A stretch of DNA of 32,172 bases. Origin: Puniceicoccaceae bacterium. Its GTDB lineage: Bacteria; Verrucomicrobiota; Verrucomicrobiia; Opitutales; Coraliomargaritaceae. Under the pieces are notes generated by a model. It had not been told where the DNA came from, did no database searches, and was given only the letters and a program-made list of their open reading frames with translations. Made by a program: the position numbers and the translations under genes. The stretch lies in NCBI GenBank assembly GCA_007692545.1, contig REBV01000263.1, positions 1-32,172 of the forward strand, given 5' to 3'. Of the stretch, positions 5,440 to 28,242 are shown one piece after another (position 1 is the stretch's first letter; the number at the start of each line of letters is the position of its first letter).

Positions 5440-5512
5440 TGGCGGCGATCCAGATAGGAATTAGAGGAAACGCCGCAACACGCTGGAAGCGTGGACTACT
5501 TTTTGTTTTGAG

Positions 5513-5577
5513 CAGCGGGTGGGGACACCCGCACTCCGAATTTAATCCTACGGAGGGTGCGTGTCCTCACGCACCAC
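5513..5577. repeat. Double-hairpin dispersed repeat (single inverted copy)
   Basis: Hairpin B, GCGGGTG-GGGA-CACCCGC, is at 5515-5532. Hairpin A, GGTGCGTG-TCCT-CACGCACC, is at 5556-5575. Between them CTCCG (5534-5538) and CGGAG (5551-5555) can also pair. The same two hairpins recur in tandem at 26118-26470 in the opposite orientation. This copy begins 12 bp beyond the cimA stop and could act as its 3' structure, although no T-tract follows. Confidence 0.85.
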
Positions 5578-14498: not shown

Positions 14499-15139
14499 AG
14501 GCCACTGGGTAGATCCGTCCCCAATTCACCGCTCCCGCTGCCGCGGATGGTCTGCGAGCCGCCACTGCCCTGCCCCGAACCCACCGTGCTGCGGTCTGCA
14601 TTCGGGCCACTGATTGAAGGTCCAGCAGGCGCACTGCTTTCCTTGGATCGGTTGACTTCGACTCGCTCCTGACTGCCACTACCCCCGAAACCAAAATCCT
14701 CAAAACTACGCTCACTCTGGCTGGTCTGGCCGCCCCCAGCGGAGCCACCACCCGCTTCGACCGTTTCTCCACCATCACTGCCACCACTACCGGAGCCTCC
14801 GCCGGATTGTGCTGTCTCAGGATCTCCTGCCCTTGTCGAGCCCGCCCCATCGCCACTTTTTGAGCGATTGCTATCGACTGTTTCGCCCCCGCCGCTACCA
14901 CCGACTCCACCCGGATCCCGTGAGGCGGCGGTTTCACTGCCACCACCGCCGGACGAGTCGGACTCAGCGCCGCTTTCTCCCGCCGAACCACCGCCGGACG
15001 ACGGACTACCCGCCGCTGAAGACGAGGCACTCGGCGACGTCACCCGTCCGTCAAAAAGATCCGGGTCCGGACCCCGGCTTTGCCCATGAGCCGGCAAAGC
15101 GAAGACCAGGGAAAGAAATATCAGGCCGAATGCTCTCAA
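14495..15139 (-). CDS. Gly/Ser-rich secreted low-complexity protein
   Basis: Residues 1-19 (MRAFGLIFLSLVFALPAHG) form a clear signal peptide. Nearly all of the remaining 195 residues are Gly, Ser, Ala, Glu and Asp in runs such as SGGGGSETAAS and SGSGGSDGGETVEAGGG, with scattered short charged blocks (SFEDFGFGGSGSQERVEVNRS near residue 143). It is probably an unfolded cell-surface or periplasmic linker-type protein. The alternative frame over the same DNA lacks a signal peptide and is Arg/Val-biased, so it is rejected. The gene overlaps the next by 4 bp and follows a 91-bp hairpin element. Confidence 0.65.
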   Translation of the reverse strand: MRAFGLIFLSLVFALPAHGQSRGPDPDLFDGRVTSPSASSSAAGSPSSGGGSAGESGAESDSSGGGGSETAASRDPGGVGGSGGGETVDSNRSKSGDGAGSTRAGDPETAQSGGGSGSGGSDGGETVEAGGGSAGGGQTSQSERSFEDFGFGGSGSQERVEVNRSKESSAPAGPSISGPNADRSTVGSGQGSGGSQTIRGSGSGELGTDLPSGL

Positions 15140-15149
15140 TTGACGCCTG

Positions 15150-15240
15150 ATCGTAGCAGGGTTGGCTCTGCCGCCCTGTGTGTAAAAGCTTGACCAACAA
15201 CTTCGTTAGCTTAGGGCGGCAGAGCCAACCCGACAACGAT
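15150..15240. repeat. 91-bp palindromic element with 19-bp perfect arms
   Basis: GGGTTGGCTCTGCCGCCCT (15159-15177) and AGGGCGGCAGAGCCAACCC (15213-15231) are perfect complements. Outside them ATCGT (15150-15154) pairs with ACGAT (15236-15240), and inside AAGCT (15186-15190) pairs with AGCTT (15208-15212). It lies in the gap between the TPR/PEGA gene and the Gly/Ser-rich gene. No T-tract follows, so it is more like a miniature palindromic element than a simple terminator. Confidence 0.85.
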
Positions 15241-15279
15241 AGAATAAGAAGAATTTTAAGTTCCGGGCTACTAAAATGT

Positions 15280-17037: not shown

Positions 17038-19917
17038 ATGACCTCCGCTGAAATCCGCCAGTCCTTTCTCGACTTCTTTGCTGCCAAAAAGCACAGCATT
17101 GTGCCCTCGGCTTCGCTCATGCCGCAGTCACCCGGTTTGCTGTTTACCAACGCGGGGATGAACCAGTTTGTGCCCTACTTCCTCGGCACCGAGAAAGCAC
17201 CCTACACACCCGCGCGCGCCGCTGACACCCAGAAATGCATCCGCGCGGGCGGCAAGCACAACGATCTCGAAGATGTCGGCTACGACACCTACCACCACAC
17301 CTTTTTCGAGATGCTGGGGAATTGGTCCTTTGGCGACTACTTTAAGCGCGAAGCGATCGAATGGAGCTGGGAGCTGATCGTCGAACAATGGGGCGTGCCA
17401 GCCGAGCGACTCTACGCCACGGTCTACGCACCCGCCGAGGGGGACCCTTCCGAATTCGACCAGGAAGCCTACGATTACTGGGCTGCGCTGTTTGAAAAGC
17501 AGGGCCTCGACCCCAAAGTGCACATCATCAACGGCAACGTGAAGGACAACTTCTGGATGATGGGCGAGACCGGGCCCTGTGGTCCCTGCTCAGAGCTGCA
17601 TGTCGACCTCACCCCCAAGGGCGACAGCCAGGGCAAACTGGTCAACCAGGACTCCGACCTTTGCATCGAGATTTGGAACCTCGTCTTTATTCAATACAAT
17701 GCGGAGGCCGATGGCAGCTTCCGCGACCTGCCGGCCAAACACGTCGACACCGGCATGGGCTTCGAGCGGGCCTGCTCACTCATCCAAAATACCAAAGGCT
17801 TCACCGACTTCTCGCAAAAGCCCACCAACTACGCCACCGACGTCTTTCAACCCATCTTCCGCACGCTGGAGCAACTCAGCGGCAAGACCTACCACGACAT
17901 CTACCCCAACTCCGAAGCCGCACCCGACCCGGATCCCGCATCCGTCTCCGCTCTTCGAGCTACGCCGGACTCTGTCCCGCATCCCGAATCCGTCTCCGCT
18001 CTTCGAGCTACGCCGGACTCTGTCCCGCATCCCGCATCCCGTACCCCGGATCCCGCATCCCGTACCCCGGATCCCGAATCCCGCCTCCAGGAAGCCATCG
18101 CCTTCCGCGTCATCGCCGACCATATACGAACCCTCGCCTTCTCGATTGCCGACGGCATTCTGCCCGGCAACACCGGCCGCAATTATGTGCTGCGCCGCAT
18201 CCTCCGCCGCGCGGTCAAATACGGGCGCACCCTCGGTTTCGACGGCAGCGCGCCCTTCCTACCCAAGCTGGTCGATACACTCGTCGCCGAATTCGGTGCT
18301 GTCTTTCCTGAAATGAAAACCCGGGCCGAGGCGGTCAAAGAGGTTCTGGCGACGGAGGAGGAGAGCTTCAACCGCACCCTGGACCGGGGCATTCAACTCT
18401 TTGAGACTGTGGCATCTGAAGCTCAGAATTTCCCGCCCGAAGAAGCCTTTAAACTTTACGACACCTTCGGCTTCCCGATCGATTTAACGGCACTCCTCTG
18501 CCGCGAACGCGGTATCACCCTCGACGAAGCCGCAGTCGAGCAGCACATGGAGGCTCAGCGCGAGCGGGCACGGGCAGCCCAGAAAAGCACCGTCGTGCGG
18601 GCCCTCGACATCAGCAGCGAAGCGGTCACCGAGTTTCTCGGCTTTGAGCAGGATAGTTGCGAGGCCACCATCCTGGAAGTGCACGAACAGGGCGACCAAG
18701 TGCTCGTGATCACGGACAAAACTGTCCTCTACACCGAAATGGGCGGCCAGGAAGGCGACATCGGCACCGCCGAAATCGACGGCCAAACTTTTGAGATCAC
18801 CGGGGTGCAAAAGATCGGCCATGCCACAGCTCATAGCTTCGCCCGGGCAGACTCCCCACTCCCCACTCCCCACTCCCCACTTTTCCTCTCACTCGCAGGC
18901 GAACGCCGCCGGGCGATCGAGGCCCACCACACCGCCACGCACCTGCTCCACTGGGCGCTCCACGAGGTCGTTTCGCCCGATGCCACCCAGCAGGGATCCA
19001 GCGTCTCACCTGAGCGCCTGCGTTTCGACTTCAACGCCAAGGCCCTCACCCCCGCTCAAATTGCCGAAATGGAAGACAAAGTGAACGCCTGTATCCAGAA
19101 TTCGGATGCAGTCTCCTGGCGGGAAGTGCCCTACACTGAAGTCAAGGGCCGGTCGGATATCATGCAGTTCTTCGGCGACAAATACGGTGACCAGGTCCGC
19201 GTCGTGCAGATCGGTGGCGAGCCCGGTGCGCTAAACGGCTACTCAATGGAGCTCTGCGGGGGCACTCACGTGCGCAACACCTCGCAGATCGGTCTATTCA
19301 AAATCAAGTCCGAAGGGGCCATAGCTGCCGGAGTGCGCCGGATTGAGGCGCTTTGCGGTGCTGCCGCCGAAGCCTACCTGGAGGAAGTGCAGGCTCAACA
19401 AGCCGAAGCCAAGGCCACTGCGCTGGAAAAACTGACAGCCGTCAACCAGTCGTTGCAAGCACTCGACGCGGAGACCTTCACCGTCGATAGCGGGGCCTCG
19501 GCGGATGCGCTCAAGGCTCTCGCCATCGAAGCGGATAAAGCACTCAAAAAAGCACAGTCTGCCGGTGCCGCCAAGCTGGCCCAAGCCCAGATCGCAGAGC
19601 TCGACCTATCGGTCAATTTGGTCATCGCAACTGAGGGCGCCGCCGCGCTGCTGCAGGAACTGATGAATGCGCTCAAGGAACGGCAATTCACCCAGGCCGC
19701 ATTTTGTATTGTCGACGACGGCGAGAAGCTACACCTCGGTGCCCTGGTCGGAGCGGACTCCAGCCAGAACGCAGGCAAGCTCATCCAAAGCCTCGCTCCC
19801 ATCGCCGGAGGCAAAGGCGGCGGCAAGCCGGACATGGCCCGCGGCGCAGCTCCGCAACGCGAGCACTTGCTCCAGCTGAAAACTTCCGCCATAGACTTGC
19901 TCAACAAGACTCCCTAG
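17038..19917 (+). CDS. alaS: Alanyl-tRNA synthetase with two in-frame repeat insertions
   Basis: AlaRS charges tRNA-Ala. The start at 17038 (MTSAEIRQSFLDFFAAKKH) matches the family; the longer frame from 16984 is not conserved. The aminoacylation domain (1-290) contains GNWSFGDYFKREAI, and the editing domain has EAHHTATHLLHW (near residue 628) and CGGTH (near residue 741). A C-terminal coiled coil and oligomerisation domain ends with GGKGGGKPDMARG. At 959 residues it is about 80 longer than usual. The excess is explained by low-complexity tracts at residues 302-347 and about 604-615, each made of nucleotide tandem repeats. All core motifs are intact and the frame is open, so the protein is presumably functional. 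Confidence 0.95.
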   Translation: MTSAEIRQSFLDFFAAKKHSIVPSASLMPQSPGLLFTNAGMNQFVPYFLGTEKAPYTPARAADTQKCIRAGGKHNDLEDVGYDTYHHTFFEMLGNWSFGDYFKREAIEWSWELIVEQWGVPAERLYATVYAPAEGDPSEFDQEAYDYWAALFEKQGLDPKVHIINGNVKDNFWMMGETGPCGPCSELHVDLTPKGDSQGKLVNQDSDLCIEIWNLVFIQYNAEADGSFRDLPAKHVDTGMGFERACSLIQNTKGFTDFSQKPTNYATDVFQPIFRTLEQLSGKTYHDIYPNSEAAPDPDPASVSALRATPDSVPHPESVSALRATPDSVPHPASRTPDPASRTPDPESRLQEAIAFRVIADHIRTLAFSIADGILPGNTGRNYVLRRILRRAVKYGRTLGFDGSAPFLPKLVDTLVAEFGAVFPEMKTRAEAVKEVLATEEESFNRTLDRGIQLFETVASEAQNFPPEEAFKLYDTFGFPIDLTALLCRERGITLDEAAVEQHMEAQRERARAAQKSTVVRALDISSEAVTEFLGFEQDSCEATILEVHEQGDQVLVITDKTVLYTEMGGQEGDIGTAEIDGQTFEITGVQKIGHATAHSFARADSPLPTPHSPLFLSLAGERRRAIEAHHTATHLLHWALHEVVSPDATQQGSSVSPERLRFDFNAKALTPAQIAEMEDKVNACIQNSDAVSWREVPYTEVKGRSDIMQFFGDKYGDQVRVVQIGGEPGALNGYSMELCGGTHVRNTSQIGLFKIKSEGAIAAGVRRIEALCGAAAEAYLEEVQAQQAEAKATALEKLTAVNQSLQALDAETFTVDSGASADALKALAIEADKALKKAQSAGAAKLAQAQIAELDLSVNLVIATEGAAALLQELMNALKERQFTQAAFCIVDDGEKLHLGALVGADSSQNAGKLIQSLAPIAGGKGGGKPDMARGAAPQREHLLQLKTSAIDLLNKTP
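17941..18078. repeat. In-frame tandem repeats inside alaS (2 x 48 bp, 2 x 21 bp)
   Basis: A 48-bp unit occurs at 17941-17988 and 17989-18036 and encodes SVSALRATPDSVPHP plus Glu or Ala. It is followed directly by a 21-bp unit at 18037-18057 and 18058-18078 encoding SRTPDPA and SRTPDPE. Both unit lengths are multiples of three. They lie between the aminoacylation core and the tRNA-recognition segment that begins with IAFRVIADHIRT. Confidence 0.95.
18852..18879. repeat. Heptanucleotide tandem repeat inside alaS
   Basis: CTCCCCA is repeated four times and encodes SPLPTPHSP within the protein, just before the editing-domain stretch LAGERRRAIEAHHTATH. The repeat resembles intergenic heptamer repeats known from other bacteria (short tandemly repeated repetitive sequences described in cyanobacteria), but here it lies inside an essential gene. 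Confidence 0.9.
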
Positions 19918-24850: not shown

Positions 24851-26095
<1,245 letters not shown>

Positions 26096-26481
26096 TTAGT
26101 CAGCCGAACTGCCAAGACGGAGTGCGGGTGCTCTTCCCCAGCGTAGCCCTGCTGGGCAGAGCAGGGTCCCCACCCGCTTGTTCCAGTCTTGATGTGGCCT
26201 CTCCGCTCGAACTCCGAAAAGGTGCGTGAGGACACGCACCCTTCATTACGGAGTGCGGGTGTCCCCACCCGCTTGTTCCAGTCTTGATGTGCCTCTCCGC
26301 TCGAACTCTGAAAAGGTGTGTGAGGACACGCACCCTTCATTACGGAGTGCGGGTGTTCCCACCCGCTTGTTCCAGTCTTGATGTGCTTCTCCGCTCGAAC
26401 TCCGAAAAGGTGCGTGAGGATCCGGCTTCATCCCGCAAGCGGAACTACGCCGGGACTTCGCACGCACCCTCCTGAGACGGA
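26096..26481. other. Convergent intergenic region filled with double-hairpin repeats
   Basis: The 386 bp between the dapL and ptsI stop codons hold no credible gene. Nearly all of the region is the 94-bp repeat described at 26118-26470. Minus-strand frames here simply translate the repeat and have no start signals. Confidence 0.85.
26118..26470. repeat. Three tandem copies of a 94-bp double-hairpin repeat, two carrying loop insertions
   Basis: Each unit starts with CGGAGTGCGGGTG at 26118, 26249 and 26343. It has a GCGGGTG/CACCCGC hairpin, a constant stretch TTGTTCCAGTCTTGATGTG, then GGTGCGTG-AGGA-CACGCACC. The middle-to-third spacing is exactly 94 bp. Copy 1 is lengthened by 36 bp (26131-26166) inside the first hairpin. 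Copy 3 is lengthened by 40 bp (26421-26460) inside the second hairpin. A single inverted relative lies at 5513-5577. Confidence 0.93.
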
Positions 26482-28242
26482 CTAAGCCAGCTTCCCCAGC
26501 GCCTTTTGGCGGAAGGCTTCCAGTCTTTGCACGATCTCGGCGGATTCGCCGAGTTGCATCACATCGTGCACCAGTGCCTCGGCATCGGACTTATTAATGT
26601 GGCGAATGAAATACTTCACCTCGGGCAAGAGACTGGAGGTCAAACTCAGCGAATGCGCCCCCATGCCCAACAGTAAGCCCGCGTAAATCGGATCGCCGGC
26701 GATTTCTCCGCAGATACTGACAGGTGTGATAGCCGCATTACCTCCATCAATGATCGCTTTCAAAGTGCGCAAAACTGCCGGATGCGCCGGATCGTAGAGA
26801 TGGGCGACTTCATCATTCAAGCGGTCGACTGCGATCAAATACTGAATCAGATCATTGCTACCGATACTCAAAAAGTCCGTTTCCGCCGCCAGCAGGTCGA
26901 TAATCATCGCAGCACTCGGGACCTCCACCATGGCACCGACTTCGATCGAGGCATCAAAAGCCTGCCCCTTTTCTGTCAGCTCCTCTTTCACCTCGGCCAA
27001 GACAGCGTTGGCCGCCCTGAGCTCAGTCAAACCACTGATCATGGGATACATGATTTTGACATTCCCGTGGGCACTCGCCCGCAGGATGGCTCGCAACTGT
27101 GTCTTGAAAATCTCAATATTTCCCAGGCAAAAACGGATCGCCCGAAAGCCCATGAAGGAGTTGTCTTCCTTCACACTCTCATCGCCGATCAATTTATCAC
27201 CGCCCACATCGAGCGTCCGGACAATAACCGGCTTCTTACCGGCAGCTTTGACCACGGCTTTATATTCGTCATACTGCACCGACTCCGGCGGATAGCCATG
27301 ATGCCGCAGAAAGATGCCTTCTGTGCGGAAAAGACCCACCCCCTCGGCGTGCATGGCCTGGACCTGATCCATCTCTTGGAACCCCTCAATATTGGCCATC
27401 AGACCAATCGAGGCACCGTCCAGCGTGCGGGCCGGTTCGGCAATAAAGCTATTAAACGTAGCATCCCGTTTCTTCCGCTCCGAGGCCAGTTTGCCGTATT
27501 TAAACAGGCGACTCTCGGTCGGGTTAATGACAATGATCCCTTCATAGCCATCGACCAAAATATGGTCGCCACTGGTGATCCGCCTGGTCGCATCGTGCGT
27601 GCCGACCACTGCCGGTATCCGCAGCGAGCGGGCCATGATGACGGAGTGACTCGTCTTGCCACCGCCGTCGGTGACAAAACCCAGCAACTTATTGCGATCC
27701 AAATCCGCCGCATCCGATGGCGAAATATCCTCCGAAATAATGATACTCTCTGCCGCCAATTGGCCCAGATTGACCTTCTGCATACCAATTAGGTTGTGCA
27801 ACAGCCGACGAGAGACGTCGCTGATATCAGAGACACGCTCACGCAAATACTCGTCTTCCATCGACCGGAAAAACGCGATGTAGCGATTCGCCACCTTGTT
27901 GTAGCAAAACTCAATGTTCTTTTTTGAGCTGCGCAGCTCAGCCGTCACTTCATCCAGCAGGGCATTGTCCTCCAAAACCAGCAGGTGCGCATCAAAAATC
28001 CGCGCCTCGCCCTCCCCCAGGGTCTTGGCGATTTGATCGCGTATCTGCGTGATTTCTGCCCGGGTCTCCAGAATCGCCTGCTCAAAACGCTCCAGCTCCA
28101 CCTCGACCCGAGACTCACTAATAGCATAACAGGGCACATCCAGTTGCTTCTGTAAATGGACGACAGCGCGGCCGTGGGCGACGCCGGGTGATGCAGCGAT
28201 GCCCTCTAAAATGATTTCTTTTTTGTTCCGATCTTCAGACAA
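26482..28242 (-). CDS. ptsI: PEP-protein phosphotransferase (PTS enzyme I)
   Basis: Enzyme I takes phosphate from phosphoenolpyruvate and passes it to HPr. The 586-residue protein has the N-terminal IASPGVAHGRAVV start, the HPr-binding helical domain, the phosphorylated histidine H199 in GGKTSHSVIMARS, and the C-terminal PEP barrel with GVGLFRTEGIFL, IGSNDLIQYLIAVDR and ICGEIAGDP. No ptsH (HPr) or EII gene is adjacent, so the system may be regulatory or have its partners elsewhere. It lies 65 bp downstream of ispE on the same strand. The stop is 11 bp from the repeat array. Confidence 0.95.
   Translation of the reverse strand: MSEDRNKKEIILEGIAASPGVAHGRAVVHLQKQLDVPCYAISESRVEVELERFEQAILETRAEITQIRDQIAKTLGEGEARIFDAHLLVLEDNALLDEVTAELRSSKKNIEFCYNKVANRYIAFFRSMEDEYLRERVSDISDVSRRLLHNLIGMQKVNLGQLAAESIIISEDISPSDAADLDRNKLLGFVTDGGGKTSHSVIMARSLRIPAVVGTHDATRRITSGDHILVDGYEGIIVINPTESRLFKYGKLASERKKRDATFNSFIAEPARTLDGASIGLMANIEGFQEMDQVQAMHAEGVGLFRTEGIFLRHHGYPPESVQYDEYKAVVKAAGKKPVIVRTLDVGGDKLIGDESVKEDNSFMGFRAIRFCLGNIEIFKTQLRAILRASAHGNVKIMYPMISGLTELRAANAVLAEVKEELTEKGQAFDASIEVGAMVEVPSAAMIIDLLAAETDFLSIGSNDLIQYLIAVDRLNDEVAHLYDPAHPAVLRTLKAIIDGGNAAITPVSICGEIAGDPIYAGLLLGMGAHSLSLTSSLLPEVKYFIRHINKSDAEALVHDVMQLGESAEIVQRLEAFRQKALGKLA

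Follow-up and report, generated by a model that had tools for sequence, protein, structure and literature searches.

The window analysed here, a stretch of 32,172 nt from a Puniceicoccaceae bacterium (contig REBV01000263.1), holds two convergent open reading frames (24851-26095 on the plus strand and 26482-28242 on the minus strand), and between them lies an array of short hairpins, two of which contain an extra block of DNA in the loop. The question that this locus raises is whether these blocks were gained by insertion into pre-existing hairpins or are what is left of an originally longer repeat and, if they were inserted, what kind of element they might be and which enzyme might have carried them in.

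An array of REP-like hairpins with empty and filled loops

The original prediction described three tandem units of 94 bp, each combining two hairpins, and the sequence confirms this: the three units start 94-95 nt apart and are 94-100% identical. The first hairpin of each unit, H1, is on the plus strand and reads GGAG-T-GCGGGTG-TCCC-CACCCGC (also given as GGAGTGCGGGTG-TCCC-CACCCGC), and the second, H2, is on the minus strand and reads GGGTGCGTG-TCCT-CACGCACC. With stems of 7-8 bp and loops of 4 nt, both have the properties of short, GC-rich, dispersed intergenic stem-loops. We term them REP-like because their head is GGAG and not the GT(A/G)G of published REPs (PMC2817692). H1 on the plus strand and H2 on the minus strand follow one another three times at 94 nt, which is the alternating orientation and regular spacing of a BIME or REP doublet; the head-to-head H1/H2 pair at 5515-5575 also fits this description. 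The 94-bp unit is thus probably a REP-like hairpin pair in inverted orientation, tandemly repeated as a BIME-like array, a reading that we hold jointly with that of the blocks as insertions, given below. Folded as single-stranded DNA, the empty hairpins score far better than shuffled sequences and the filled hairpins also score better than theirs (Table 1).

As had been claimed, the gains of 36 bp and 40 bp are in different hairpins, one in an H1 loop and the other in an H2 loop. The filled hairpins occupy the two ends of the row of six, an arrangement with a chance of 1 in 15 under random insertion; it remains a puzzle, and we count it against our best explanation. When orthologous empty sites were sought in congeners, the ptsI-adjacent intergenic region proved unalignable (the best relatives have 87% protein identity), and the array was absent from those examined. 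An inverted single copy of the unit had additionally been reported at 5513. Both H1 and H2 are indeed present there, but they do not make up an inverted whole 94-bp unit; their heads face each other across 17 nt, and the pair corresponds to the junction of neighbouring array units.

Table 1. Hairpins and blocks in the window, in order of position
Feature	Position	Strand	Remarks
R2 REP, GTAG head, GTAGTCCACGCTTCCAGCGTGT	5478..5499	-	adjoins single H1
Single H1, empty	5515..5537	-	
Single H2, empty	5555..5575	+	head to head with H1 at 5515
R4 REP, GTAG head, GTAGCAGGGTTGGCTCTGCCGCC, empty	15154..15175	+	
Block copy, in frame in alaS	17941..17974	-	
Second block copy, identical, in frame in alaS	17989..18022	-	
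Six REP-like hairpins (H1-H2, three times)	26117..26475		between two convergent ORFs
H1 copy 1, head GGAG, filled loop	26119..26177	+	fold z -2.6
36-bp block inside H1 copy 1 loop	26131..26166	+	sits between GTG and TCCC
H2 copy 1, empty (4-nt loop)	26221..26241	-	fold z -6.0
H1 copy 2, empty (4-nt loop)	26250..26272	+	fold z -3.8
H2 copy 2, empty	26315..26335	-	
H1 copy 3, empty	26344..26366	+	
H2 copy 3, filled loop	26409..26469	-	fold z -2.1
40-bp block inside H2 copy 3 loop, CGAAGTCCCGGCGTAG...GAAGCCGGA	26421..26460	-	

H1 and H2 are dispersed through the genome (a 0.70-Mb genome sample contains some 15 of each, counting both empty and filled copies), alongside the further hairpin families R2 (GTAGCTCACGCTTCCAGCGTGT), R3 (GTGGCGTGYYCGCTTGCGRRCGCC) and R4 (GTAGCAGGGTTGGCTCTGCCGCCCTG), which k-mer counting revealed. 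The heads of these families, GTAG in R2 and R4 and GTGG in R3, have the published form, and those of H1 and H2 lie outside it. The R4 REP of the window is held within a repeat of about 150 nt (15123-15274) that is common to loci L221 and L222 at 77-87% identity. The assembly comprises 321 contigs with an estimated contamination of 6.6%, and many blocks are found at contig ends.

The blocks belong to one palindromic family

The 36-bp and 40-bp blocks had been taken for two different gains. This was not borne out, since an alignment of block copies puts both in one family: the 40-bp block, which on the H2 head strand reads CGAAGTCCCGGCGTAGTTCCGCTTGCGGGATGAAGCCGGA, aligns with the 36-bp block and with the other copies, and among the members of this GCGTAG-hairpin-CGAAG family the 36-bp copy has diverged furthest. 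The block consensus, C-N(2-4)-TCCGGCGTAG-(3-6 bp hairpin)-CGAAGACGGA, is an imperfect palindrome of 33-40 nt with a covarying stem. All aligned copies share an unchanged GTAG, which stands before the hairpin of 3-6 bp and itself lies within the longer imperfect stem. In the covariation alignment, which is small and made of related sequences, 91% of cells pair and there are 13 double changes, more than in any of the 500 shuffles or in any slid version.

The genome-wide count of the loose pattern GCGTAG-N-CGAAG was not above that of its reversed control; only palindromic members of the block family are therefore meaningful, and blocks were called by palindromic or exact-context criteria in place of the loose pattern. 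The composite pattern GTG..GCGTAG..CCNCAC, counted in six relatives, was at or below its reversed control, with few real cases. Integron attC sites and CRISPRs were considered and set aside; neither RYYYAAC/GTTRRRY boxes nor a spacer array was noticed. We also considered the block as a CGTC REP, with a CGTC head, an AT-starting stem and a CCA-like tail, and rejected this on head and stem: the reverse complement of the block starts TCCGTCTTCG, and its pairing departs from the published AT-starting CGTC stem (PMC3733652).

A covarying stem, in an array that lies between convergent gene ends, would also suit long hairpins kept by selection for RNA termination or mRNA stabilisation, the block being a functional RNA module. 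We consider this very improbable, as a search of the window against Rfam gave no match, blocks are present within the alaS coding sequence and in tandem microsatellites, and empty and filled forms occupy the same kind of place.

Empty and filled loops coexist, and blocks nest in blocks

Loops were counted in the 0.70-Mb genome sample, which was taken as stretches partly picked around block matches, so that the filled fractions are overestimated. Loop lengths were bimodal, and empty and filled hairpins coexist: 10 H1 loops were empty and 5 filled (34-43 nt), 11 H2 loops were empty and 4 filled (44-45 nt), and 37 R3 loops were empty and 5 filled (35, 35, 68, 68 and 104 nt), while all 22 R2 loops were empty. 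The empty and filled classes are real despite the sampling around block matches. The junction is constant in H1 and H2, GTG^block^TCCY, and the orientation of the block relative to the REP head is identical in 13 of 13 clear filled H1, H2 and R3 hairpins; the one filled R4 hairpin in the sample has the block in the opposite orientation. No target duplication is detectable beside the blocks, and the target bases differ between hairpin families. The original prediction had named two contrary outcomes, blocks found nowhere else or blocks found in every copy. Neither was seen: empty forms stand beside filled ones, and further H1, H2 and R3 hairpins carry blocks at this position of the loop, as do places outside H1 and H2 carry blocks of their own.

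In several R3 loops a second block lies within the first at GCGT^AG, leaving two left parts and two right parts, and at several loci such nested copies, (CTTGTCCGGCGT)2...(AGCTCGNAGAGCGAAGACGGA)2, are balanced. A variant block, CCTGTCCGCCGAAGCC...GGAGG, occupies the small loop of other R3 hairpins. Some nested arrays are unbalanced (5 left and 3 right parts; 4 and 2), and tandem slippage therefore also acts. In a related species (the genome of L315), three H2 copies are filled, each of them with an H1 21 nt away, and they share flanking DNA; thus filled forms also multiply by copying.

Processes of this kind might be sufficient in themselves: template switching in replication, slippage and short-homology recombination between palindromes could have produced the filled hairpins with no dedicated enzyme. 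Slippage is seen in the unbalanced nested arrays and in tandem 12-mers and 21-mers, and filled hairpins have spread within larger copies. However, exact junctions, a single orientation, a covarying block that crosses phyla and outer hairpins that are unrelated to one another would be unexpected from slippage alone, and we regard this explanation as possible though doubtful.

One R3 hairpin, downstream of a RAYT-like gene (L115, position 3406), carries in its loop an insert, TTGTTTTGATCTTGAGCTAGCCGAAAG, from outside the block family.

Block copies in alaS and in other bacteria

Both block copies in alaS (Table 1) lie within a (GCGGGATAC)n-like tandem repeat. The segment that contains them is about 70 residues long here, compared with about 16 in AlaRS homologues of known structure. 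Between window positions 17941 and 18080, the two blocks and the repeat add roughly 54 in-frame residues to the alaS product.

Among the matches listed, the block core was found in Bradyrhizobium, Kiritimatiellae, Verrucomicrobia, Bacteroidetes/Ignavibacteria, Desulfobacterales, Sedimentisphaerales and CPR records. With the block's own ends trimmed, a strong flanking inverted repeat surrounds the block at 20 of 103 sites among the matches listed, against 5.6% of permuted flanks (binomial p 1e-6, a value that ignores the relatedness of sites). Two Bradyrhizobium REPs with a GGTGGGCA/TGCCCAC stem have the block as their loop, one with an intact GTAG head (GTAGGGTGGGCA...TGCCCAC) and the other with GCAG. 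A block-filled REP locus of Bradyrhizobium also carries a REP with a different loop. A plasmid collection searched with the filled Bradyrhizobium REP gave no match.

These distributions bear on whether the block was gained or lost. Had it been original to H1 and H2 and then deleted from most copies, its constant position in both hairpins would follow directly, and a filled form can be old, as the shared flanks in the related species indicate. Yet R3, R4, the Bradyrhizobium GTAG REP, copies of the block itself and, in frame, alaS also contain it; there are more empty forms than filled; and for the array as many as four precise losses would be required, each restoring a 4-nt loop, as against two gains. 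Because outer hairpins that are unrelated to one another share the block, because two identical copies stand in frame in alaS where AlaRS homologues are shorter, and because two gains suffice for the array, sequence comparison supports gain of the block by insertion, and an ancestral long form appears unlikely.

Candidate enzymes

In line with the original prediction, about 25 Y1_Tnp (IS200-like/RAYT-like) genes are present in the genome, many of them over the cut-off of the Pfam Y1_Tnp model. Many of the proteins are ~340 aa long with an HFH motif and an AYIDLNPVRA segment. When two of them were compared with the NCBIfam model for REP-associated transposases (NF047646), the match was partial (E 4e-18) and its 65.7 bits were below the cut-off of 80. 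By strict match, 3 of 13 RAYT-like genes have a REP within 200 nt, and by eye so do L101 and L108; the figure for a random point is 4.4%.

Five RAYT-like genes (L100 2402-3424, L101, L114, L115 and L116) are, together with ~95 nt upstream, 85-90% identical at different places, which is unusual for genes that are normally single-copy. The RAYT-like genes of L115 and L109 contain in-frame GATGCGGGA repeats. L100 (1970-3523) and L101 (1653-3196) carry the same gene-plus-RAYT locus at 88% identity with different adjacent hairpins, and perhaps represent two strains or species in one assembly.

A Y1 match is absent from 6 of the 29 other block-bearing genomes. GIY-YIG genes are present in all 29, often with at least ten in CPR genomes of ~1 Mb, and are widespread anyway (12 of 14 control genomes). 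Of 39 small GIY-YIG loci, 9 have the block within 400 nt, as does 1 of 30 loci with a Y1 gene (Fisher p 0.035), weak statistics from genomes chosen for having the block and with the relatedness of sites ignored. A tRNA or tmRNA gene is found in 19 of the 39 small GIY-YIG loci and in none of the 30 Y1 loci, and 20 of 111 scanned blocks are close upstream of a small GIY-YIG gene, nearly all in Bradyrhizobium. Small standalone GIY-YIG genes stand just after tRNA/tmRNA genes at L354, L355, L362, L368, L374, L375, L265 and L275, with GTAG..CGAAG palindromes between the tRNA/tmRNA and GIY-YIG genes, an arrangement that Bradyrhizobium shares with relatives of the window's genome.

On this evidence, including the same palindromes between tRNA ends and GIY-YIG genes in congeners, small standalone GIY-YIG nucleases rather than Y1 enzymes might move the block, which would then be a non-autonomous form of a tRNA-end-targeting GIY-YIG element. 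We consider this doubtful: the only GIY-YIG matches in the window's genome are UvrC and one truncated small protein, most block copies are away from any GIY-YIG gene, and the arrangement could be hitch-hiking. Equally tentative is the broader proposal of an undescribed cross-phylum mobile palindrome that prefers folded loops, including its own, and is moved by tRNA/tmRNA-end GIY-YIG nucleases. A literature search for GIY-YIG proteins linked to REPs or bacterial palindromes returned nothing relevant, and the literature searched describes no GIY-YIG-driven mobility of REP-like repeats.

Y1 enzymes fit as mobilisers, since they work on hairpins in single-stranded DNA, with GTAG as a guide (PMC8266576), and the genome is full of Y1 genes. 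Since its GIY-YIG matches are limited to those named above, we keep Y1 first for the window's genome, a ranking over GIY-YIG that we make without confidence. According to Di Nocera et al., one of the two REP superfamilies is without a dedicated transposase (PMC3733652).

A miniature palindrome that may insert into folded loops

The reading that we favour, with a probability of roughly two in three, is that the blocks constitute a separate miniature palindromic element of 33-40 nt that has inserted into the loops of pre-existing REP hairpins, into itself and into one gene. What the sequences themselves demonstrate is a block family with a covarying stem, empty and filled forms with one junction, and outer hairpins unrelated to each other, as well as in-frame insertion in alaS and a wide taxonomic spread; such nested palindromes point to a mobile mini-element with a preference for folded DNA. 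The block would insert at the 5′ edge of existing REP hairpin loops, apparently without target duplication and, in H1, H2 and R3, always turned the same way with respect to the REP head; it would also enter copies of itself and alaS. Insertion may take place into hairpins that have folded in single-stranded DNA, such as the lagging-strand template, and would be carried out by a trans-acting enzyme. For this role the IS200-like Y1/RAYT-like transposases that the window's genome encodes would be the most economical candidate, with small GIY-YIG nucleases as the main alternative. The originally proposed mechanism, targeting extruded hairpins or single-stranded loops, agrees with the recurrence of blocks in the same loop position and with the presence of Y1 genes; a REP-associated transposase as the inserter is unsupported. 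The opposite orientation in R4, the unbalanced nests and the 6 of 29 genomes without Y1 count against our explanation.

Several published systems share features with this one. Like GTAG REPs and BIMEs, the hairpins described here are short and headed, dispersed and intergenic, occur in inverted pairs and tandem clusters, and reside in a genome rich in Y1/RAYT-like genes; R2 and R4 (GTAG) and R3 (GTGG) carry the published head, but the head of H1 and H2 is GGAG and the loops hold a second palindrome (PMC3733652, PMC2817692). REPs within palindromes are known from three species, as GTAG-23 in T. roseum, GTAG-15 in A. variabilis and CGTC-1 in H. neapolitanus (PMC3733652). There, too, a small palindrome lies inside another, in T. 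roseum with empty targets as well; in the present case, however, the palindrome that is entered is itself a REP, several unrelated REP families serve as targets, the block nests in itself and many phyla are involved. The GTAG-14 REPs of Bradyrhizobium have loops of complementary residues of up to 27 nt (PMC3733652), and the two hairpins with the block as loop may be of this kind; the paper treats those loops as loop variants and not as a common inserted element (PMC3733652). REP palindromes also serve as insertion targets for IS1397 and ISPpu9 (PMC1525189, PMC8450116), but each of these is a complete insertion sequence that encodes its own transposase, whereas the block is 33-40 nt long and non-coding. 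The two alaS copies recall the Rickettsia palindromic elements (RPE), which are in-frame palindromes in genes (PMC3733652); the block is of a different sequence family and lacks the AT-starting stems of RPE-4 and RPE-6, which are CGTC-tagged REPs. Single-strand insertion of the IS200/IS605 type duplicates no target and is strand-specific, 3′ of a short target; here no duplication was detected and 13 of 13 H1, H2 and R3 cases share one orientation, but the target bases vary by family. Palindromes within palindromes and the targeting of REPs by insertion sequences are therefore already published; the new part is a block that crosses phyla and nests in itself. No description of one palindromic block that crosses phyla and invades its own loops and those of several REP families was found in the literature searched.

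By what means REPs and comparable mini-palindromes move is for the most part an open question. Pairs of empty and filled hairpins within one genome provide countable insertion sites and testable targets for enzymes that act on single-stranded DNA, and the GIY-YIG genes at tRNA ends are a lead that can be checked in culturable Bradyrhizobium.
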